A stretch of DNA of 34,049 bases from positions 1-34,049 of IMG/VR virus record IMGVR_UViG_3300040809_000441. One strand, written 5' to 3'. The stretch is from a virus. A model generated the notes under the pieces. The model did no database searches. It was not told the DNA's origin and saw only the letters and a program-made list of their open reading frames with translations. Shown in pieces: positions 19,937-32,520 of this stretch; within the stretch, counting starts at the first letter, position 1, and the number at the start of each line of letters is the position of its first letter. The position numbers and the translations under genes were made by a program.

Positions 19937-21829
19937 ATGAGTTATCAACTAAACAAAACAAACGGAACATTACTTACAGATTTAATTGACGGACAGATTG
20001 ATACAAATAGTACTAATCTTGTTTTAGTTGGTAGAAACTATAGTGGCTACGGTGAATACTTTAATGAAAACTTTATTAAGTTACTTGAAAATTTTAGTAA
20101 TACTGCTGCACCGAGTAATCCGTTACAAGGCCAAACTTGGTGGGATAGTGCAGAATCAAGATTAAAAGTTTATGACGGTAATGCATGGAAATCGTCAGGC
20201 GGTCCTTTTGTAGATGATACAAGGCCTCAAATGGTTGCAGGAGATTTATGGATTGATAATGAAAACAACCAAATGCATGCCTACGACGGCTCCGACTTAA
20301 TTTTAGTAGGTCCGTTATATACAAAAAACCAAGGAGTTAGTGGCTTTCAAATTGAAAGTATACTTGATACACAAAGTAGATCACGTACAGTTGCTAATCT
20401 ATATATTGGCGGCACTTTATCAGCAGTAATTAGTAACATTCAATTTACGCCAACCTATGCACAAAGAATTACAGGACTTGTTACAGCAGATAACCCAGAT
20501 GGGATAATTTATCCAGGATTTAATTTAATTGATCCTGGTAATTTTAAATGGAAAGGTACAGTAGAATCTGCAAATGCTCTAGTTACATCTAGCGGCCAAG
20601 TTAGAACAGCTGACTCGTTTTTACCTTCTACAACTGACGGAGTTACAGTTGGTACATTAACCATACAAAACTCAGGTGGATTAACAATTGGACTTGGACA
20701 AAACCATGTGCAAAAAGTTGTTGGTCCAAGATTTTATTTTGAAAATCAGCTAACTGACCACGATATTAGTATGCGTGTAAAATCAACAGCATTTGGTTCT
20801 GTTAGTGTTGATGCAATATATGTAGATGCAAGTACAGCTAGAGTAGGTATTTTCAATAGAACAGATGCTGGCGATTTTAGACTACCTGAATATACATTTG
20901 ATATTCAAGGTGATTTAAGAGTTACAGGTAATATGGTAATTGAAGGCGATACAACAAGTGTTGATGTTGCTACATTACGAGTAGAAGATAAAAACATTGA
21001 AATTGCTAAGACAGCAGACGGAACAACACTAACGGGTGCTAATGCTAACAATGCCGGCTTTGTATTAGATACAAGTGATGTAGGTCAAAAATTATGGACA
21101 TGGCAAACAACAGCAAATGCATGGACATCTAATGTTAATATTGATGTTAGCGATACAACTAAAGCATACAAAATCGGCGGCGTAGATAAACTTACAGATG
21201 ATACACTTGTAAATGTTACAAAAGCACTAGATTTAGACCAAATTGGTACACTTACAGTATTACAAGTTGATGAAATTAATATTAATAGTAAAACTATTAG
21301 CTCAACTAACGATATGATCTTAGCATCAACGTCGGGTATTTCTATAACAGCATCCGGTGACATTAATATTACTGACAGCCAAAAAATTACTGGCATGGCT
21401 GACCCAACTGCTGCACAAGATGCTGCAACAAAAAATTATGTAGATACACAAATATCTACTGAAGTAATAGCATTTAGTATGGACATTACTGGTTTAGGTG
21501 TAGGAGCAACATTAGAAAACAATGTTGCTGCTTATCTAGGAGATTTATATCCTGCTAATGCAAATAATAACGGAAAAATTGCTCGCATACATACAACATC
21601 ATATGCAGGGGCTACGGTAGAAGGGGTTGATGTAGAATCAGCAAAGAATATTTCATTTATTCCTGTTGATTCTAATGGAACACAAAATGAATCAGTTGTA
21701 CAAAGTGTTACATTTGCTGCTGAAGGTGCTAGTGGTACAGTTATTCTGTCACCAGCTAGAGCATTAATGCAGTATATATCAAATGGAACAGCTTGGGTAA
21801 TTGACCAGCCGACATCCAACTATCCGTAA
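19937..21829 (+). CDS. Tail-fibre-like structural protein, second of three paralogues
   Basis: 630 residues. The ATG follows the previous stop after three bases and has no strong ribosome binding site, so it is probably coupled to its neighbour. Residues 1-200 repeat the N-terminal module: YSGYGEYFNENFIKLLENFS, QTWWDSAESRLKVYDG and GDLWIDNENNQMHAYDG. The middle has the pattern FDIQGDLRVTGNMVIEGDTT and LRVEDKNIEIA, common in fibres of marine T4-like phages. Around residue 490 a segment like DPTAAQDAATKNYVDTQI occurs, a recurring phage fibre motif. The C-terminus (about 510-630) is beta-rich with no domain I can name and may be the distal tip. It lacks the Tail Collar domain of its upstream paralogue. 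Confidence 0.72.
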   Translation: MSYQLNKTNGTLLTDLIDGQIDTNSTNLVLVGRNYSGYGEYFNENFIKLLENFSNTAAPSNPLQGQTWWDSAESRLKVYDGNAWKSSGGPFVDDTRPQMVAGDLWIDNENNQMHAYDGSDLILVGPLYTKNQGVSGFQIESILDTQSRSRTVANLYIGGTLSAVISNIQFTPTYAQRITGLVTADNPDGIIYPGFNLIDPGNFKWKGTVESANALVTSSGQVRTADSFLPSTTDGVTVGTLTIQNSGGLTIGLGQNHVQKVVGPRFYFENQLTDHDISMRVKSTAFGSVSVDAIYVDASTARVGIFNRTDAGDFRLPEYTFDIQGDLRVTGNMVIEGDTTSVDVATLRVEDKNIEIAKTADGTTLTGANANNAGFVLDTSDVGQKLWTWQTTANAWTSNVNIDVSDTTKAYKIGGVDKLTDDTLVNVTKALDLDQIGTLTVLQVDEININSKTISSTNDMILASTSGISITASGDINITDSQKITGMADPTAAQDAATKNYVDTQISTEVIAFSMDITGLGVGATLENNVAAYLGDLYPANANNNGKIARIHTTSYAGATVEGVDVESAKNISFIPVDSNGTQNESVVQSVTFAAEGASGTVILSPARALMQYISNGTAWVIDQPTSNYP

Positions 21830-21833
21830 AAAC

Positions 21834-21841
21834 GATAAATA
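21834..21841 (+). promoter_or_regulatory. Probable phage late promoter (GATAAATA)
   Basis: GATAAATA lies in the 43-base gap before the third fibre gene and matches the T4 late -10 consensus at seven of eight bases. A start near 21848 would leave an AGGGG ribosome binding site (21858-21862) in a leader of about 25 bases. A TATAAT-like sequence (ATATAATA) follows closely but has no -35 partner that I can see. Confidence 0.5.
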
Positions 21842-21872
21842 ATATAATAGCACTATTAGGGGTTACACAAGA

Positions 21873-23354
21873 ATGGCTTATTCAATTGATAGATATAACA
21901 ATACACTGTTAACAACAGTGGAGGACGGCACAGTTGATCAAACAACTGACCTTAAATTCATAGGTAAAAACTATGCAGGATATGGTGAAATTCAAAATGA
22001 AAATTTCCTATTTTTGCTAGAAAACTTTAGCGGAGCTAATGAACCAGCAAGACCATTAAGCGGTCAAGTTTGGTTTGATAGCGGTTCAAGTAAATTAAAG
22101 TTCTTTGACGGAACAAAATGGCGCACAACTGGCGGCGCTGAAATTGGTGCAACAGAACCTACAGGATTAGCAACAGGTGATTTTTGGTGGGATAGTGCAA
22201 ACGATCAACTTTACGTATTTAATGGTGTAAGTTTTATTTTAATTGGTCCACAAAACGCAGGCGAAGGTGTAACCCAAATGCAAAGCCGAGAAGTTGTGGA
22301 TGCTCAAGGCGGAACAAAAAGTATTATTACTGCTACAATTGAAGATGAAATTATATTTGTTATTAGCCCGCACGAGTTTGATTTAAACTCAAGTGAAACT
22401 GTTGTAAAAGGACAAGGCTATGATAGATTAAGAAAAGGTATTACACTAAAAAATACTAAAACAGCAACAGGTGGAGTTACAAGTACAGATCATTATTTCT
22501 GGGGTACAGCATCGAACGCATTAAAATTGGGCGGCATTGATGCAAGTAACTTTATTCAAACTTCAGATGGAAACATTCAGTTTACACAAGGTTTAGAATT
22601 ACCAGATGCAGGTTTATTAGTCGGCGATTCAAATGATTTACATATTAAAATTGATGATAACGGTTATGATGGTGTTATTCAAAATGTAACTAACAATAGT
22701 AGCATTAAATTTAAAGTTACTACATCTGGCGGAACACTTACACACGTAGCAACAATAAACGATAGTACAGTAGTACCAGCAGCGGATAATACATTTTCAT
22801 TAGGATCAGCAAGTTTAGGCTGGTCTAATGTTTATGCAGCAAATTTTACAGGCGAAGCATCAACTGCTACTGCACTGAGAGTAGGAAGTGATTTCCGCAC
22901 TTCGAGTGTTAGTGCATCAAATAATACAGTTGCAGTTAGAGATGCTACAGGAAACATTGCAGCAAACTTATTCCAAGGTACAGCAACTACAGCACGTTAT
23001 GCTGACTTGGCAGAAAAATATTCTACAGCAGAAGAACTTGCTCCTGGCACAGTAGTTTGTGTTGGCAGAGGCGAGGCAGAAGTACAACCAGTTAATTCAG
23101 GTTGCATAGCAATTGGTGTAGTTTCAACTGATCCTGCACTAATGATGAATAGCGATGCAGATGGCCAGTACATTGGCTTAAAAGGCCGACTACCAGTACG
23201 TATTGTTGGTTCTGTAAATAAGGGCGATGCAGTATATGTCAACGATAACGGATGTGCAGGGACTGCAATAAACGGCGGTTCGTTAGTAGGTATTGCCTTA
23301 GAAGGTAGCAGCGACGAGGGTGAAAAGCTAATTGAATGTGTACTCAAAGTATAA
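21873..23354 (+). CDS. Tail-fibre-like structural protein with C-terminal ADLAEKY domain, third of three paralogues
   Basis: 493 residues; AGGGG sits ten bases before the ATG. The N-terminal ~190 residues repeat the shared module: YAGYGEIQNENFLFLLENFS, GQVWFDSGSSKLKFFDG and GDFWWDSANDQLYVFNG. The middle has fibre-type phrases such as TFSLGSASLGWSNVYAANF. The last ~125 residues start with ARYADLAEKYSTAEELAPGT and continue with VCVGRGEAEVQP, MMNSDADGQYIGLKGRLPVRI and VNKGDAVYVNDNGCAG. This C-terminal domain recurs in structural proteins of marine T4-like phages. It resembles the last strand-rich segment of fibre proteins, but I know of no defined activity. It is not a recognisable intramolecular chaperone of the S74 type. 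Confidence 0.72.
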   Translation: MAYSIDRYNNTLLTTVEDGTVDQTTDLKFIGKNYAGYGEIQNENFLFLLENFSGANEPARPLSGQVWFDSGSSKLKFFDGTKWRTTGGAEIGATEPTGLATGDFWWDSANDQLYVFNGVSFILIGPQNAGEGVTQMQSREVVDAQGGTKSIITATIEDEIIFVISPHEFDLNSSETVVKGQGYDRLRKGITLKNTKTATGGVTSTDHYFWGTASNALKLGGIDASNFIQTSDGNIQFTQGLELPDAGLLVGDSNDLHIKIDDNGYDGVIQNVTNNSSIKFKVTTSGGTLTHVATINDSTVVPAADNTFSLGSASLGWSNVYAANFTGEASTATALRVGSDFRTSSVSASNNTVAVRDATGNIAANLFQGTATTARYADLAEKYSTAEELAPGTVVCVGRGEAEVQPVNSGCIAIGVVSTDPALMMNSDADGQYIGLKGRLPVRIVGSVNKGDAVYVNDNGCAGTAINGGSLVGIALEGSSDEGEKLIECVLKV

Positions 23355-23366
23355 GGAACAATAAAA

Positions 23367-24296
23367 ATGGCCGTCGGCGACACTATTACAGCAGCAAGAA
23401 TTAACAACTTACAATCTCGTATAGAACTTATTTTAGGAGCCGGCTCCGGACAAAATGGATACGGACAATCATTATCGAGTGCGCAAGTGGCAAATGATAC
23501 AACCGCAACAGCAAATGACTTAAACGCCATATATGCAGACGTTCTTAAAGCTAGAGTACACCAAGTAGGTCCGGGAGACTTGTCAATAGCACAAGTTGTA
23601 CAAAATTTAAACGTAATTGCCGAAGATGAAAGTTTTTTTGTAGATGATGATGGTGTAACCTCGGCAGATCCAGATGGTGCTAAAAAAGGTTTAGCAGACT
23701 TTGAATCACTTATGTCAACCGTTGAAAGCGACAAAGCACTAGTTGATTCAAGTCAAGCAACATTAGAAACAGGTATTAGTTCAGTTAGGTCGTCAACATG
23801 GAACGGTTTAATTTATCATGAGTTTATTGCTACATTTAGCAGTGCTGATGAAAGACGTTATTTCTTTAATACAGGCGGTGAAATACGAATTTCATCAGCA
23901 AACACTAGTGCAGGAACTCCTAAAGGATTAGATTGGTCAGCGTTATGTACAAGTACAGGTACTATTAGATTTGGTTCAAATACTACATCGTCGACAGCCG
24001 GTGGCGGAACGTCAGTTGGTAACTTTGATTTAACCAGTAATTATCAAAATGTTTACAACAAAGTTGGTTCAGGAACAGGTTCAGGAATATATGCAGCTAA
24101 TACATATACTGTTAAAGTAAGATCAGACATCGACACACGTATTATTTTTAGAATTGAATTTAATGATTTGGCAGTAGATAATGTAATTGATAATAACGTA
24201 GACGGAATTTTACGTAGCACAATTCAGCATTACAGAGCAACAGGTGATGTTGCTGTTGCTGCTCCAACATATTTTAATAGTGTTACACTTTCATAA
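23367..24296 (+). CDS. Virion structural protein of marine T4-like phages, first of a tandem pair
   Basis: 309 residues; AAGGAA overlaps the upstream stop just before the ATG. The N-terminal region is helical with ITAARINNLQSRIELILG and GYGQSLSSAQV. The centre has STWNGLIYHEFIATF, then ERRYFFNTGGEIRISS, then a Gly/Ser/Thr-rich beta region and the C-terminal strand VKVRSDIDTRIIFRIEF. The next gene has the same plan (RYNNLRARVNTVLG, GYGQGITSNSV, ARRHFFNSGGQIRCQA), so the two arose by duplication. I recall such proteins among marine T4-like phage virion components without a known role. Neighbouring fibre genes suggest a tail or fibre accessory part. Confidence 0.62.
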   Translation: MAVGDTITAARINNLQSRIELILGAGSGQNGYGQSLSSAQVANDTTATANDLNAIYADVLKARVHQVGPGDLSIAQVVQNLNVIAEDESFFVDDDGVTSADPDGAKKGLADFESLMSTVESDKALVDSSQATLETGISSVRSSTWNGLIYHEFIATFSSADERRYFFNTGGEIRISSANTSAGTPKGLDWSALCTSTGTIRFGSNTTSSTAGGGTSVGNFDLTSNYQNVYNKVGSGTGSGIYAANTYTVKVRSDIDTRIIFRIEFNDLAVDNVIDNNVDGILRSTIQHYRATGDVAVAAPTYFNSVTLS

Positions 24297-24346
24297 CATT
24301 ATCTCTGTTGTAATTTCTAACTAAATACTAAAAATGAGAGATAATG
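24297..24346 (+). promoter_or_regulatory. Stem-loop that can hide the ribosome binding site, with a late-promoter motif in its loop
   Basis: A perfect 10-base inverted repeat (CATTATCTCT at 24297-24306, AGAGATAATG at 24337-24346) begins right after the upstream stop and ends one base before the next ATG. The only purine-rich ribosome binding site (GAGAG, 24336-24340) lies almost wholly in the right arm. The 30-base loop holds CTAAATA at 24321-24327. A transcript starting some six bases past this motif would contain only the right arm and could not form the stem, whereas read-through RNA could. The pairing is mostly A-U with a large loop, so stability is uncertain. Confidence 0.6.
24321..24327 (+). 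promoter_or_regulatory. Probable phage late promoter (CTAAATA)
   Basis: CTAAATA followed by CTA lies in the 51-base gap and resembles the late -10 element, with C in place of the consensus T/A at one position. It sits about 20 bases before the ATG, the same arrangement as the motif before 17263. Confidence 0.45.
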
Positions 24347-24347
24347 C

Positions 24348-25337
24348 ATGCCAACAGTTGTACAAGCCAGTAGATATAATAATTTAAGAGCGCGGGTAAA
24401 CACCGTTCTTGGGGCTTCTACGATATCTGCTCCTCAATTTGGTTACGGACAAGGTATTACATCAAATTCAGTAATTGGAATAGCAGCAGTTACTGACCCA
24501 GTTGATGCTGACAAAATTCAAGCACAAGACTACGAAGATTTATATGTTGATATTGTACGTGCTAGATACCATCAAGTAGGATCTGCTTATTCTATTGATG
24601 ATTTTGTTATAGGAGATTACGAAGCTAATCCTGCAACTGCTGACAAAATTGAAGAAGCATATATTACCGGATTAGAAAATTTAGCAACAAATCTTGAAAC
24701 TGATAAATTTTTAGTTGATACTTCTCAACTAGCAATTACAGGATTTGTAGATGCTAATGGTGATGACATGTCAAGTGTACGAGATGGAATTTCAGGACCG
24801 TGGCAAGGATCAATTAGTCATATTTTTACAGTAGAATTCACCAACGCCGCAGCAAGGCGACATTTTTTTAACTCAGGCGGACAAATAAGATGTCAAGCAA
24901 GCGTTGAATATACAGGCAGTCAAGCAAAAACAGTTGATTGGCAAACAATTCTAAATAATATGGGGCAAATTTCATTTGCTGCAAATTCAACATATAGCAA
25001 TTCTGGTGTAGGAACAGGATATCCTGTAGGAAATTACCAATTAAATAGCGCATATAGGCTTTGCTACTCTAAAAGCGGCGGCGCATTATATGCTAGAAAT
25101 GATTATGAAATATATGTTAGAGAAATAAGCCAAAACGTAATACAATTTAAAGTAACATTTGTTGATGGACAGCCCAACGATCCTACATACGGTATTGATG
25201 AAAGTGTTTTAGGCGATTTTGAAAGTTCAATATTGCTTGCTGCACCTACTGGTTCAGTAAACATCAATGGAACAGTATACGATACTGTTGTTTACCAAGA
25301 AGCGTTGCCAGTTGGCGCAACTATTTCTCCTTTATAG
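24348..25337 (+). CDS. Virion structural protein of marine T4-like phages, second of a tandem pair
   Basis: 329 residues, paralogous to the preceding gene. Shared landmarks are RYNNLRARVNTVLG near the start, GYGQGITSNSV, a YEDLYVDIVRARYHQVG segment (compare LNAIYADVLKARVHQVG upstream), WQGSISHIFTVEF, ARRHFFNSGGQIR, and the strand YEIYVREISQNVIQFKVTF. Differences cluster in the central loop region and at the C-terminus. It is soluble with no signal peptide and probably a tail-associated virion protein of unknown role. Its ribosome binding site sits in a potential stem, so its translation may be held back on read-through RNA and released on a late transcript. It is the last gene before a sigma70-type promoter and a change in gene content. 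Confidence 0.62.
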   Translation: MPTVVQASRYNNLRARVNTVLGASTISAPQFGYGQGITSNSVIGIAAVTDPVDADKIQAQDYEDLYVDIVRARYHQVGSAYSIDDFVIGDYEANPATADKIEEAYITGLENLATNLETDKFLVDTSQLAITGFVDANGDDMSSVRDGISGPWQGSISHIFTVEFTNAAARRHFFNSGGQIRCQASVEYTGSQAKTVDWQTILNNMGQISFAANSTYSNSGVGTGYPVGNYQLNSAYRLCYSKSGGALYARNDYEIYVREISQNVIQFKVTFVDGQPNDPTYGIDESVLGDFESSILLAAPTGSVNINGTVYDTVVYQEALPVGATISPL

Positions 25338-25348
25338 TCACTATTAGC

Positions 25349-25377
25349 TTGACAACTCCAAAAAACTGTTATATACT
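25349..25377 (+). promoter_or_regulatory. Sigma70-type promoter for the downstream modification cassette
   Basis: A perfect TTGACA at 25349-25354, an exact 17-base spacer and TATACT at 25372-25377 (one mismatch to TATAAT). The expected start near 25384 precedes AGGAG at 25392-25396 and the ATG at 25404. This is the only gap in the window with a host-type promoter of this quality, and it lies where structural genes give way to glycosyltransferase-like and radical SAM genes. Confidence 0.75.
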
Positions 25378-25403
25378 AATATAATATCATTAGGAGTATT
25401 ACT

Positions 25404-25760
25404 ATGGACGAACGTCTTGAAAAAGCATTAGATTTTTCAAATTACATGATCACACTAAACAACCAAAAAAGATTACTTCGAGAAAAATTTGAAGAAGGGT
25501 TGCTGTACTTTTATGCTGGATCTCAATTTACAATTACTAAAGAATTAATTAATTTTTGTAAAGCAATGGACGACGCAGACCAAGATAGTATAGTACTAAT
25601 TGACGACCATGGTAATCCTGCATTAATTGAAAATATTGAAGACTTTTACGGAAAAATACTTGCGCAATATTTTGAAACAGCCAACTCCTATCATGCAGGA
25701 TATATTTCATTAAAGAAAAATAGAAGTGTAGAAAAGTTAGTCGAATATGAGCAAGAGTAA
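25404..25760 (+). CDS. Conserved 118-residue protein of marine T4-like phages, function unknown
   Basis: AGGAG lies seven bases before the ATG, behind the sigma70-type promoter, so this is the first gene of the cassette. The protein is largely helical and charged, opening MDERLEKALDFSNYMITLNNQK, with FTITKELINFCKAM, an acidic centre (DDADQDSIVLIDDHGNP) and the end ISLKKNRSVEKLVEYEQE. I recall small proteins of this pattern in many marine T4-like phages, always unassigned. No catalytic motif, metal site, signal peptide or membrane segment is visible. Its reading frame overlaps the next gene by 14 bases, which suggests coupled translation. Confidence 0.68.
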   Translation: MDERLEKALDFSNYMITLNNQKRLLREKFEEGLLYFYAGSQFTITKELINFCKAMDDADQDSIVLIDDHGNPALIENIEDFYGKILAQYFETANSYHAGYISLKKNRSVEKLVEYEQE

Positions 25761-26604
25761 AGGTGTTTTTCTTTTTGCTAAAAACAATGGTCAACTAGAT
25801 TATGTAAAACAGGCAGTTTTTCTAGCAAAAAGAATTAAAAAATATTTAAATGTCCCTGTTTCTCTTGCAACAGACAGTCCTGTATATTTAGAAGAAACGT
25901 ATGGTACTGATGATTTTGATAAGGTTATAAAATTAGATTATACTGACGAACGTAATCTACGCTACTTCTATGACGGTGCAATGTCAAAAAAGAAGGGCGG
26001 ATTTAAAAATGCAAATCGTGCAAGTGCATATGAATTATCTCCGTATGATGAAACACTACTATTAGATACTGATTACATTATATCTAATAATTTACTAGCA
26101 TCAGTATTTGAATCTGATGCAGACTTTATGATATACAAAAAATCAAGTGATATTTCTCAAGCTAGAAATGAAGACGAGTTTCAAAAAATTGACGATGTTA
26201 GTGTTGATTTTTATTGGGCAACTGTTGTGTTTTTTAAAAAAACAGAAACTAATAAAAAGTTTTTTGATTTAGTTAAGCACATCGAGGACGAGTGGCATCA
26301 TTATAGAAGAACATATCAAGTTAAGTCACATCTTTTTAGAAATGACTTTGCATTTAGCATCGCTATTCATATAATGAATGGATTTCAGCTAGGCAGTTTT
26401 GCTAAAGAGTTACCTGGCACAATGTTTTATACTGCCGACTTAGATATACTTTGGCAATTAGATGACGATGAAATGATGTTTCTTGTAGGCAAGGAAAACT
26501 ACTTAGGCGAATATACTACAGTACGAACAAAAGGACTAACGGTTCATGTTATGAATAAGTTTAGTTTAACACGGATGATTGATATGGAGTTAGCAAATGA
26601 ATAG
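25747..26604 (+). CDS. GT-A-type glycosyltransferase-like protein, first of two paralogues
   Basis: 285 residues. The N-terminal strand GVFLFAKNNGQLDYVKQAVFLA followed by VPVSLATD fits a nucleotide-sugar-binding Rossmann-like start. A DxD motif in SPYDETLLLDTDYI places D107 and D109 where GT-A enzymes hold metal and nucleotide sugar, as in family GT8. Later segments include VDFYWATVVFFKK and the C-terminal LTVHVMNKFSL, whose His could help bind metal as in GT8. The downstream neighbour shares the same layout including SPYDET and DTD, so this is a duplicated pair. It starts inside the previous gene by 14 bases and overlaps the next by eight. Donor sugar and acceptor cannot be told; fibres or host surface glycan are both possible. 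Confidence 0.66.
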   Translation: MSKSKGVFLFAKNNGQLDYVKQAVFLAKRIKKYLNVPVSLATDSPVYLEETYGTDDFDKVIKLDYTDERNLRYFYDGAMSKKKGGFKNANRASAYELSPYDETLLLDTDYIISNNLLASVFESDADFMIYKKSSDISQARNEDEFQKIDDVSVDFYWATVVFFKKTETNKKFFDLVKHIEDEWHHYRRTYQVKSHLFRNDFAFSIAIHIMNGFQLGSFAKELPGTMFYTADLDILWQLDDDEMMFLVGKENYLGEYTTVRTKGLTVHVMNKFSLTRMIDMELANE

Positions 26605-28766: not shown

Positions 28767-29699
28767 ATGAGTAAATTTAAGCCCATTGATTATGACATAA
28801 TTTATTTGTCTTATGACGAGCCAAACGCAGAAAAAAACTATGCAGACTTATGTCAAAAAGTACCATGGGCTAAACGTGTACATGGAGTAGAAGGCTCAGA
28901 TGCTGCACACAAAGCCTGTGCGAGATTAAGTGAAACAGATAGATTTATTACAGTTGACGGCGACAACAGAATACGTGCAGAATTTCTAAACCAAGAAATT
29001 GATTTTACTGAACATGTTGATTTACAAAATGCTGTTATTAGCTGGTGCGGAAGAAATGAAATAAATGGATTAATGTACGGTAACGGTGGTATTAAATGCT
29101 GGCCAACTGATTATGTGTTAAATATGCGAACACATGAAAATGCTGACCCTAACAATGCACATGCACAAGTAGATTTTTGTTGGGATGCACAGTATATACA
29201 AATGAATAGTGTTTATTCAGACGTATTTAATAATGAAACACCAGGACAAGCATGGAGAGCAGGTTTTAGAGAGGGTGTAAAACTTGCTACTGATCGCGGC
29301 GTAAGAATTACACCCCAAGAGTTTAAAGATAATCATTGGAGATGTTTGCATTGGTTATATATTTGGTCTATGGTAGGTGCAGATGTTGACAATGGCCTTT
29401 GGGCAATCTATGGCGCACGAGAAGGTCTGTATAAAACAATGTGTACAGATTGGGATTATGTGCAAGTAAGAGACTTTAAATACCTAAATAGTCTTTGGGA
29501 CGAAGTTGAACCAAGGGTTTCAATGGAAGGACTACAAGATTCCATTGAAGATTTAGGCAATAAAATCCTAACTAACTTAGATATTCCTATTGCAGAACAG
29601 CCGTTAAACGCTAAACAAAGTAAATTTTTTAAATCAGTTTATCAAAATCCTTCAAGAACTGATAATCAAAGATTTATCGAAGAACTAAAGGACGTATAA
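28767..29699 (+). CDS. Glycosyltransferase-like protein with a DGDN motif
   Basis: 310 residues. The ATG directly abuts the previous stop, and the end overlaps the next start by one base. The N-terminus YDIIYLSYDEPNAEKNYADL, a basic stretch AKRVHGVEG and then RFITVDGDNRI (D64, D66) follow the GT2-like order of strand, helix, strand, DxD. I recall proteins with this start in marine T4-like phages under the name glycosyltransferase family 2-like. The region CGRNEINGLMYGNGGIKCW, followed by WRAGFREGVKLA and HWRCLHWLYIWSM, has many Trp and aromatic residues that could form the acceptor pocket. It is distinct from the two paralogues upstream. Confidence 0.58.
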   Translation: MSKFKPIDYDIIYLSYDEPNAEKNYADLCQKVPWAKRVHGVEGSDAAHKACARLSETDRFITVDGDNRIRAEFLNQEIDFTEHVDLQNAVISWCGRNEINGLMYGNGGIKCWPTDYVLNMRTHENADPNNAHAQVDFCWDAQYIQMNSVYSDVFNNETPGQAWRAGFREGVKLATDRGVRITPQEFKDNHWRCLHWLYIWSMVGADVDNGLWAIYGAREGLYKTMCTDWDYVQVRDFKYLNSLWDEVEPRVSMEGLQDSIEDLGNKILTNLDIPIAEQPLNAKQSKFFKSVYQNPSRTDNQRFIEELKDV

Positions 29700-31111
29700 T
29701 GGGTGACGTTTTAACCGGATATAAGAGTGTAAGAGAAGAACTTAATAATATTAGTTGTTCTATGTGCCTTGCCAAATGGAAGCAAGTTACACTTCACTTA
29801 CAAACAGGTCATACGCACAGTTGCCACCACCCAGCAACACATAAAATACCTTTAGAAGAAATTGAAGTAGATCCTAGTGCGCTACACAATACTAGTTTTA
29901 AAAAGCAACAACGTGCTAAAATGCTCAAAGGTGAACGTCCAGAAGAATGCGACTATTGCTGGACAGCAGAAGACTCGTCAGATGGCTCTACATTTAGTGA
30001 CAGAATAACTAAAAGTGCAGAAGATTGGGCTTGGCCTGAGAAAGATATTATTGCAAAGAGCTCTCCAGATGAAAATACAAATCCTAGCTATGTAGAAGTT
30101 AGTTTTTCAAATGCTTGTAACTTTGCGTGTACATACTGTTCACCTGAAATTAGTAGTACTTGGATGCAAGAAATACAAAAGCACGGCGGGTATACTGGCA
30201 CTACATATAATTTTAATAATTTAGAATGGATTGCACAAAACGGTAAAACACCGATTCCGCATAAAGATCCAAATCCTTATGTTGATGCGTTTTGGAAGTG
30301 GTGGCCAAAGTTGTATCCAGACTTACACACATTTAGAATTACTGGCGGCGAGCCGTTGATGGCAAAGGATACTTTCAAAGTTTTAGATTATATTATTGAA
30401 AACCCTAATCCTAACTTAGAATTAAACATAAACAGCAATCTTTGTGTACCAGACGGTTTAGTTGACAAGATGATAGAAAAGGCTAAACGCATTCAAGGTG
30501 AAGGTTTAATCAAAGATTTTAAAATTTATACTAGTGCAGAAGCTTATGGTAAACGTGCTGAGTATATCAGACACGGTATGGATTATAACCAGTGGATTGA
30601 TAACTGCGATAAAGTTTTAACAGAAATACCAGATTGTAAAATTACAAATATGGCAACATACAACTCATTAAGTTTGTCTAGTTATCAAGATTTAATGAAA
30701 GACTTGTTAGACTTGCGTAAAAAACATCACACTGACCCTGCAAAAAGCCATGCAGTAAGTTTAGATGTTAGTTATTTACGTTGGCCACCGCATCAATCAA
30801 TACTAATAGTACAGAATGAAAAATATTTAAAAATGCTTGAAGATCAAGTAACATGGATGTTTCAAAATAAAGAACATAGTCATTGGCCTCCATTGTGCGG
30901 TATTGGAATGTATGATTATGAGATTAATAGATTACAAAGGATATATTGGGTAATGCAGCAGAGTCCTAAGCACATTAAAGAAAAAGATCTTATTGAAGGA
31001 AGAAAAAACTTCGTTGCATTCTTTGATGAACATGACAAACGTAGAGGAAAGAACTTCTTAGAAGTATTTCCTGAAATGGAAGATTTTTATTGGGAGTGTA
31101 AAACGTTATGA
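29699..31111 (+). CDS. Radical SAM protein of the twitch-domain type, first of two paralogues
   Basis: 470 residues. The radical SAM CxxxCxxC motif is intact in SFSNACNFACTYCS (C140, C144, C147), which binds the [4Fe-4S] cluster that cleaves S-adenosylmethionine. A downstream FRITGGEPLM carries the GGE element that contacts the SAM amino group. Ahead of the core lies a Cys-containing region: C20 and C23 (CSMCLAKW), C42 (HSCHHP), then C84 and C87 (ECDYCW). Four of these five recur in the paralogue, so they probably ligate an auxiliary cluster or metal. Phage proteins with this layout are named twitch domain-containing radical SAM proteins. The substrate is not known. Overlap is TAATG with the gene before and ATGA with the gene after. 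Confidence 0.78.
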   Translation: MGDVLTGYKSVREELNNISCSMCLAKWKQVTLHLQTGHTHSCHHPATHKIPLEEIEVDPSALHNTSFKKQQRAKMLKGERPEECDYCWTAEDSSDGSTFSDRITKSAEDWAWPEKDIIAKSSPDENTNPSYVEVSFSNACNFACTYCSPEISSTWMQEIQKHGGYTGTTYNFNNLEWIAQNGKTPIPHKDPNPYVDAFWKWWPKLYPDLHTFRITGGEPLMAKDTFKVLDYIIENPNPNLELNINSNLCVPDGLVDKMIEKAKRIQGEGLIKDFKIYTSAEAYGKRAEYIRHGMDYNQWIDNCDKVLTEIPDCKITNMATYNSLSLSSYQDLMKDLLDLRKKHHTDPAKSHAVSLDVSYLRWPPHQSILIVQNEKYLKMLEDQVTWMFQNKEHSHWPPLCGIGMYDYEINRLQRIYWVMQQSPKHIKEKDLIEGRKNFVAFFDEHDKRRGKNFLEVFPEMEDFYWECKTL

Positions 31112-32520
31112 GTAAAGGACTATTTGATTGGCGTAAAAGAGTACTAGACTCAGTTAGTCCTAGCTTCTGTGCTGCTAAATGGCTTAATGCAACTATCCAT
31201 TTAGGTCATGGCATGACACATAGTTGTCATTTGCCTATTCCTCATCCTATTGATAAGGAAGAAATTAAAACTAATCCTAGTGCGTTGCATAATACAGCAC
31301 ACAAAAAGAAACAACGTGAGCGTATGATCAAAGGTGAACGACCACCCGAATGTGAATACTGCTGGAAAATTGAAGATATTGGTAGAGATAATATTTCTGA
31401 TAGAGTATATAAGAGTCAAATATACAAAGAAAAAGACATCATTGCAATTTCAAAAAATGATCCATATGAGGATGTTATTCCAAAAACATTAGAAATTAGT
31501 TTTGATAGAACGTGTAACTTAGCGTGTAGTTATTGTAATTCAAGTTATAGCACTACATGGGCACAAGATATTAAAAAGAATGGCCCGTATCAACAAATGA
31601 AATCAGACGGTGCAGGCGCATACCACCATGACGGCGAATGGACCGAACCGTACGGAAAGTTTAACGAAGGTAATCCTTATGTAGAAGCATTTTTTAAATG
31701 GTGGCCTCAATTAAGCAGTGAACTAGAAGAACTTAGGATAACTGGCGGCGAAGCGTTAGTAAGTCATCAGTTTTGGAACTTTGCAGAAGTTGTAAAACAA
31801 AATCATGCTCCTAATTTAAGAATTGCAATTAATTCAAATCTTATGGTAAAAGATGACTTAATACAAGACTTAGTTGATTTTACTAAACTTGATAATTATA
31901 AAGAGTTTGACTTGTTTACCAGTTGCGAAGCTACTGGATTGCAAGCAGATTATATAAGAGACGGACTAGAATATAATACTTGGAAAGATAACTTAGAATA
32001 TGTTATTAGTAATGGACGTTTAAGATGTGCAACAATCATGATGACTATTACAAGTTTAAGTTTGTTTAGTATTACAGAATTTTTAGATGACATGGCAGAA
32101 TTAAAGGCAAAATATGCACCTCATAAACCTGCTGTCGATTTAAATATTTTACGTTGGCCAAGTTTTATGAGCCCGTTAGCATTGCCTGATCATATTAAGG
32201 ATCATTGCAGAGAAAAATTAGAAGCATGGTCAGAAGAAAATAAATTAAATCCGTTATTTAATCCAGGTGAAAGAGCACAGATACAAAGATTAATAGATTA
32301 CATTGAAGTAGTAGATAAACCACATAGACGTACGACCGAAGACAAAGATAAATTGCAACACGATTTTAAAAGTTTTTATGCACAATATGATAAGCGTAGA
32401 GGTAAGGACATAGGTGTATTTCCAAAGATACTTACTGATTGGTTAGATACTATCGATTTAGACAATACTATTCCGGTAATAGAAATGCATGAAGGGAGCA
32501 TCACACACTATGACGACTGA
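31108..32520 (+). CDS. Radical SAM protein of the twitch-domain type, second of two paralogues
   Basis: 470 residues, the same length as its upstream neighbour and overlapping it by four bases (ATGA). The core motif is SFDRTCNLACSYCN (C136, C140, C143), and the GGE element is in LRITGGEALVS. The N-terminal Cys set is C21 (FCAAKW), C40 (HSCHLP), C82 and C85 (ECEYCW); the extra Cys before FCAAKW seen in the first copy is absent. Both copies share SALHNT and KGERP. A CxxC near an N-terminal Cys pair fits an auxiliary cluster. Sequences near the C-terminus such as YAQYDKRRGKD (compare FDEHDKRRGKN upstream) are also shared. The two may act in sequence or as a heteromer. Confidence 0.78.
   Translation: MSKGLFDWRKRVLDSVSPSFCAAKWLNATIHLGHGMTHSCHLPIPHPIDKEEIKTNPSALHNTAHKKKQRERMIKGERPPECEYCWKIEDIGRDNISDRVYKSQIYKEKDIIAISKNDPYEDVIPKTLEISFDRTCNLACSYCNSSYSTTWAQDIKKNGPYQQMKSDGAGAYHHDGEWTEPYGKFNEGNPYVEAFFKWWPQLSSELEELRITGGEALVSHQFWNFAEVVKQNHAPNLRIAINSNLMVKDDLIQDLVDFTKLDNYKEFDLFTSCEATGLQADYIRDGLEYNTWKDNLEYVISNGRLRCATIMMTITSLSLFSITEFLDDMAELKAKYAPHKPAVDLNILRWPSFMSPLALPDHIKDHCREKLEAWSEENKLNPLFNPGERAQIQRLIDYIEVVDKPHRRTTEDKDKLQHDFKSFYAQYDKRRGKDIGVFPKILTDWLDTIDLDNTIPVIEMHEGSITHYDD

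Follow-up and report, generated by a model that had tools for sequence, protein, structure and literature searches.

How is the second of two tandem virion genes expressed when the short gap before it holds both a late-promoter motif and an RNA stem that covers its start? The question arose from a 34,049-base virus record, analysed whole and called the window here, for which the original prediction was a late-only gate, with read-through RNA blocked and only RNA begun at the internal promoter freely translated.

Flanking genes and phage lineage

The window encodes a 5,486-aa open reading frame, a tail-collar gene and the two genes that flank the gap, followed by a radical-SAM block. Profile-profile comparison with hhalign identified the two flanking proteins as tandem paralogues (probability 100, 37% identity). 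Among named phages, homologues of the upstream protein occurred only in PA5oct-type Pseudomonas jumbo phages; the PA5oct homologue, PQE65_gp360, is flagged ESI-MS/MS (virion-detected) and belongs to a block whose order (giant virion protein, a protein of about 200 aa, gp10-like protein, virion protein, PQE65_gp360) is similar to that of the window. The downstream protein had no homologue among named phages, and despite a confident model (pLDDT 88) PDB sequence and fold searches gave no convincing match. This 329-aa paralogue corresponds in some relatives to the N-terminal part of an open frame of 745-875 aa (L112:3001-5625, L051:3001-5235 and L111:2998-5598), for which there was no Pfam match.

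We had initially assumed a classic marine T4-like phage, an assumption that was dropped since a baseplate protein and the synteny with PA5oct point to a jumbo lineage. The baseplate-wedge protein of a long relative is 31-36% identical to those of jumbo phages (e.g., Atu_ph07, SCTP-2), and the same relative encodes a gp5-like hub lysozyme and a gp47-like nuclease subunit. A search for relatives in bacterial genomes found none. Taken together, these comparisons point to an uncultured giant phage of a PA5oct-related lineage. The radical-SAM block comprises two tandem radical-SAM-like proteins of 470 aa each (29699-32520), only one of which passes the Pfam cut-off; a long contig of a relative carries several radical-SAM genes and a tryptophan halogenase.

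Late-promoter motif and sigma factor

From 125 homologous loci in viral contigs we obtained 38 distinct gaps, the window's included, and every one of these carries TAAATA 21-32 nt 5' of the ATG. Other genes of these contigs are preceded by the motif as well. Its regular position in the gaps agrees with the TATAAATA-like -10 element expected of a gp55-type promoter at a fixed place before late genes. A gp55-family late sigma factor is encoded in 9/16 related contigs (phrog_12791, E about 1e-75 to 1e-81); one of these proteins (L126:1760-2605) also matches phrog_234 (E 2.8e-22). Because the motif is kept in 38/38 gaps and relatives encode this sigma factor, the identity of the window motif as a late promoter is well supported, its activity being presumed and its start site placed by T4 spacing. 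In T4 the late consensus occupies -13 to -6 (PMC2988020), which places the predicted +1 of the window at 24333, in agreement with the original prediction. An out-of-frame ATG lies one base past this position (24334-24336) in all four sequences of the window's clade; a short frame beginning there would overlap the true start.

The operon upstream of the gap (gene 21873) bears its own TAAATA, conserved with 32 homologous gaps in relatives, and read-through RNA is therefore probably late as well. A sigma-70 promoter scan of 21500-26000 gave matches no more numerous than in shuffled sequence. A near-consensus sigma-70 element, TTGACA-17-TATACT (11/12), lies at 25349-25377 in the gap before gene 25404; as that gap is without TAAATA, host-type control of the block 3' of the paralogue pair is possible. 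By eye, the homologous gaps of L082, L094, L069 and L075 have a sigma-70-like element upstream of TAAATA (TTGNNN, 17 nt, then TATTAT, TATAGT or TACTAT, with TGTGYTA common to them), which suggests dual early and late promoters within one gap.

A stem between the stop codon and the start codon

The upstream stop codon (24294-24296) and the downstream ATG (24348-24350) enclose the features listed in Table 1, the left arm beginning at the first base after the stop codon. The two arms are complementary at 10/10 positions around a 30-nt loop, so the proposed perfect 10-bp inverted repeat, which begins at the stop codon and leaves a single base ahead of the ATG, is indeed present. Four of the five bases of the Shine-Dalgarno (SD) sequence lie within the right arm and CTAAATA lies in the loop, both as originally described.

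Table 1. Features of the gap and its surroundings (window coordinates)
Feature	Position	Strand	Basis and remarks
Upstream gene, 309 aa, predicted virion (tail/baseplate region) protein	23367..24296	+	ORF; stop codon abuts left arm
Left (5') arm CATTATCTCT	24297..24306	+	Inverted-repeat search, folding; absent from RNA begun at late motif
Late-promoter motif CTAAATA (TAAATA 24322-24327), in loop	24321..24327	+	Conserved in relatives; sigma factor in relatives
Predicted late transcription start (+1)	24333	+	Predicted from T4 spacing (-13 to -6)
SD-like GAGAG	24336..24340	+	4/5 bases within right arm
Right (3') arm AGAGATAATG	24337..24346	+	Inverted-repeat search, folding; invariant in clade A
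Downstream gene, 329 aa, tandem paralogue of upstream gene	24348..25337	+	ORF; putative start control by stem
TAAATA ahead of upstream operon (gene 21873)	21836..21841	+	32 homologous gaps with TAAATA in relatives

Folding agreed with what had been anticipated for the two RNA forms. The 71-nt read-through RNA (24290-24360) gave exactly the 10-pair stem, with an energy of -10.4 kcal/mol and a z of -1.8, and 24333-24360 was unstructured. In contexts of 100-350 nt the predicted pair probability of the stem was 0.92-0.98 at 37°C, with the SD paired, and was similar at 10-20°C. In late RNA of 118 nt there is partial pairing between the SD and coding sequence (probability 0.2-0.57 at 37°C), so that the late form is predicted to be open, if incompletely.

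Perfect 10-bp repeats with a loop of at most 45 nt occur seven times in the window (five distinct) versus 3.8 ± 2.3 in Markov sequence. With a count this near expectation, repeat length alone is not significant in such an AT-rich window, and we rejected it as evidence for the stem. The gap-only arms of the window nevertheless paired better than dinucleotide-shuffled left arms (p = 0.010). By computation the stem is a real structure with co-varying counterparts in many relatives, and its effect in vivo is putative.

Pairing across the motif in relatives

Clade A comprises four sequences, namely the window, L022/L003, L010 and L011. In addition to the right arm, the left-arm core TATCTCTGTT is identical in all four although it is non-coding, and 4-fold sites of the neighbouring genes are 43-67% identical in clade-A pairs including the window. 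L010 has one outer pair broken and an inner extension gained. L021/L061 differ in their flanking arm sequences, yet these remain complementary (AATTCTCTTA/TGAGAGAATT) and enclose the motif in the loop; in L087, which is related to them, this stem has been lost. In clade B, the largest, the 3' end of the upstream gene, stop codon included, pairs with the start region of the next gene (for example GGCAUAAUCA with UGAU..AUGCC), often with an inner helix as in L051. A complementary change was seen by eye in L044, which has TAAGTCA/TGACAA versus the common TAATCA/TGAT, i.e., GUCA/UGAC versus AUCA/UGAU. A single consensus stem for clade B was also sought; RNAalifold predicted none from the column alignment, because the pairing registers differ. 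L017, L019, L094, L120 and L087 keep the motif and gave no significant cross-promoter stem in the duplex test. L017, L019 and L094 have local hairpins between stop codon and motif; those of the diverged L017:2919-3000 and L019:2914-3000 are 9-11 bp long, differ in sequence and leave the SD uncovered.

We compared left-right pairing across the motif with that of dinucleotide-shuffled left sides in 34 target lineages. The mean z was -1.36, with p ≤ 0.05 in 12/34 lineages (Fisher 3e-10). As controls we used 35 other TAAATA gap lineages from the same contigs (13 of the gene-21873 promoter gap and 22 others), which centred on about 0 (targets versus controls, Mann-Whitney p = 2e-5). Since the 34 lineages are not fully independent, each arm was also tested against swapped partners. 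For this and for the following independent-pair test several region definitions were tried and p-values are uncorrected: own arms outperformed swapped arms among 32 representatives (whole region, p = 2.5e-4; stop/start helix, p = 3e-4) and within clade B alone (p = 0.007 and 0.003, respectively), with no such effect in the control gaps (p = 0.74 and 0.40). Across 15 tree-disjoint pairs, which are independent, the whole region gave a mean of -2.5 kcal/mol (10 negative, 3 positive, p = 0.008) and the outer helix p = 0.006, versus p = 0.76 in control gaps and p = 0.33 for the gap-only arms.

Gap-only pairing was not significant outside clades A and C and was rejected as the conserved unit. The expectation that the arms would be conserved thus held in the window's clade and in the L021 clade and failed elsewhere; likewise, pairing does co-vary across the motif as foreseen, but in most lineages it joins the stop and start regions instead, and several have no stem. 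In most lineages the pairing apparently under selection is that between stop-codon and start-codon regions, not the window's gap-only arms. Our reading is that the pairing is genuine but not tightly specified, with the stop and start codons at its centre, and that some lineages have lost it.

Accessibility of the start region

Over the 38 gaps, the median start-region opening energy was 7.0 kcal/mol for read-through RNA, 1.5 for late-started RNA and 5.2 with a shuffled left side. Covering the stop side with a terminating ribosome lowered the read-through median from 7.0 to 2.8 kcal/mol. In the folding model truncation alone would free the start in any such leader, and the specific signal is the occlusion by the own versus the shuffled left side. 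The own left side occluded more than shuffled ones (p ≤ 0.05) in 14/38 gaps. The window is not among these 14: its opening energy of 4.5 kcal/mol did not exceed the 5.2 kcal/mol obtained after shuffling the left side (p = 0.57), and a fall to 0.9 kcal/mol is predicted if +1 is 24333.

Such numbers might mean that the promoter alone is functional and the stem is incidental complementarity between a purine-rich SD and a pyrimidine-rich, AT-rich leader, late promoters simply lying near start codons. The near-chance repeat length, the unexceptional occlusion in the window, the lineages that lack a stem and the missing RNAalifold consensus in the large clade would all fit. We nonetheless consider this unlikely, as both the swapped-partner test and the independent-pair test gave a positive result at this gap and a negative one in the controls, and the left arm has a non-coding core that does not vary in clade A although 4-fold identity in pairs with the window is 43-67%.

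Proposed two-mode expression of the second paralogue

The best explanation, to which we give an even chance, is a gp55-type promoter in the loop of a stop/start stem that allows both coupled and independent expression of the second paralogue. It builds on computed features (the stem, the conserved motif, the late sigma factor of relatives, the paralogy and the co-varying pairing in relatives), from which we infer promoter activity, a start site, an effect on translation and coupling. The cis-acting stem would connect the SD and start of the second paralogue with the stop-codon region of the virion gene before it. On read-through operon RNA both arms would be present and the downstream start closed, until ribosomes that terminate on the upstream gene unfold the left arm and so couple the two translations. 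RNA begun at the internal promoter, at about 24333, would lack the left arm and be freely translated. The second paralogue would thereby be made at about the upstream level on read-through RNA and independently from its own promoter.

The alternative is the late-only gate of the original prediction, in which, as in T4 gene e, read-through RNA stays silent whatever the translation upstream and only late-started RNA is translated. The layout is the same as that of gene e (PMC3014915), the stem forms with high predicted probability and the late-start RNA is predicted to be more open. However, the left arm runs from the first base after the stop codon, inside the footprint of a terminating ribosome, so the proposed block of read-through RNA is not supported in that form. 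Nor is the proposed late-only timing, because the conserved TAAATA before the upstream operon leaves no obvious early read-through to silence. A late-only gate therefore appears unlikely. Coupling is the more natural outcome, since a left arm on or directly after the stop codon would be covered by terminating ribosomes; the structure abuts the upstream stop in the window, and in relatives the stop codon itself pairs. Read-through RNA is thus more likely to be translation-coupled than blocked, and together with its probable lateness this favours two-mode expression. That the stem instead protects or ends the upstream mRNA (as a 3'-end hairpin, processing site or terminator) and covers the start incidentally is very improbable: L017, L019 and L094 do have local hairpins between stop and motif instead, but the site has no U-run, no terminator call and no Rfam match, and the pairing runs beyond the promoter as far as the start codon, an extension unnecessary for a hairpin at a 3' end.

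Two-mode expression might further be family-wide, as a bimodal gate in PA5oct-related giant phages that is operon-coupled, late-released and sets the ratio of paralogous virion proteins; this extension we put forward tentatively, inclining somewhat against it. If true, giant phages would set the ratio of a duplicated virion protein through coupling on operon RNA and independence on late RNA, and gp55-type late promoters with testable leader structures would extend to an uncultured PA5oct-related lineage. The 38-gap set and its controls provide a ready comparative test bed.

Comparison with known systems

In stem-based translational coupling, a single structure contains the stop codon of gene 1 and the start of gene 2 and is opened by terminating ribosomes. 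The window likewise has stop and start in one structure, but its loop holds a late promoter, which would give a second RNA form without the stem.

The T4 genes e, soc, 49 and I-TevI have start-sequestering leaders, with the promoter-within-structure layout described for e and I-TevI (PMC3014915), and the precedent was thus correctly invoked. In gene e, as proposed here, late promoters lie between the arms of a stem sequestering the SD and start, and late-started RNA lacks the 5' arm (PMC3014915). In contrast, gene e is a lysis gene (lysozyme) silenced on early read-through RNA, whereas the window gene is a virion paralogue, its read-through RNA is probably late and its left arm lies against the stop codon of the preceding gene. 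T4 soc and gene 49 also have inhibitory RNA structure at the translation start; they differ in gene and phage lineage and are likened by that structure, with soc as a virion-gene precedent. The I-TevI and mobE hairpins sequester the RBS on long RNA, and the I-TevI late promoter adjoins the 5' part of the structure; these are homing endonucleases in introns or inside genes, whereas no mobile element was seen at the window. The Rak2-like jumbo phage CBB resembles the window in having a gp55-like sigma factor and, ahead of structural genes, a T4-like motif (predicted late promoter ATAAATA); in the part of that account considered here the motif is reported without surrounding RNA structure (PMC5259590).

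The claim that such an arrangement would be new between structural genes was too strong, because T4 soc, a capsid decoration gene, is already known. If two-mode expression holds, the device of T4 gene e would be more than a lysis timer or a control of homing endonucleases. The present case differs from the T4 leaders in that the structure overlaps the upstream stop codon, the two genes are tandem paralogues, the phage belongs to a jumbo lineage and comparisons with relatives lend support.
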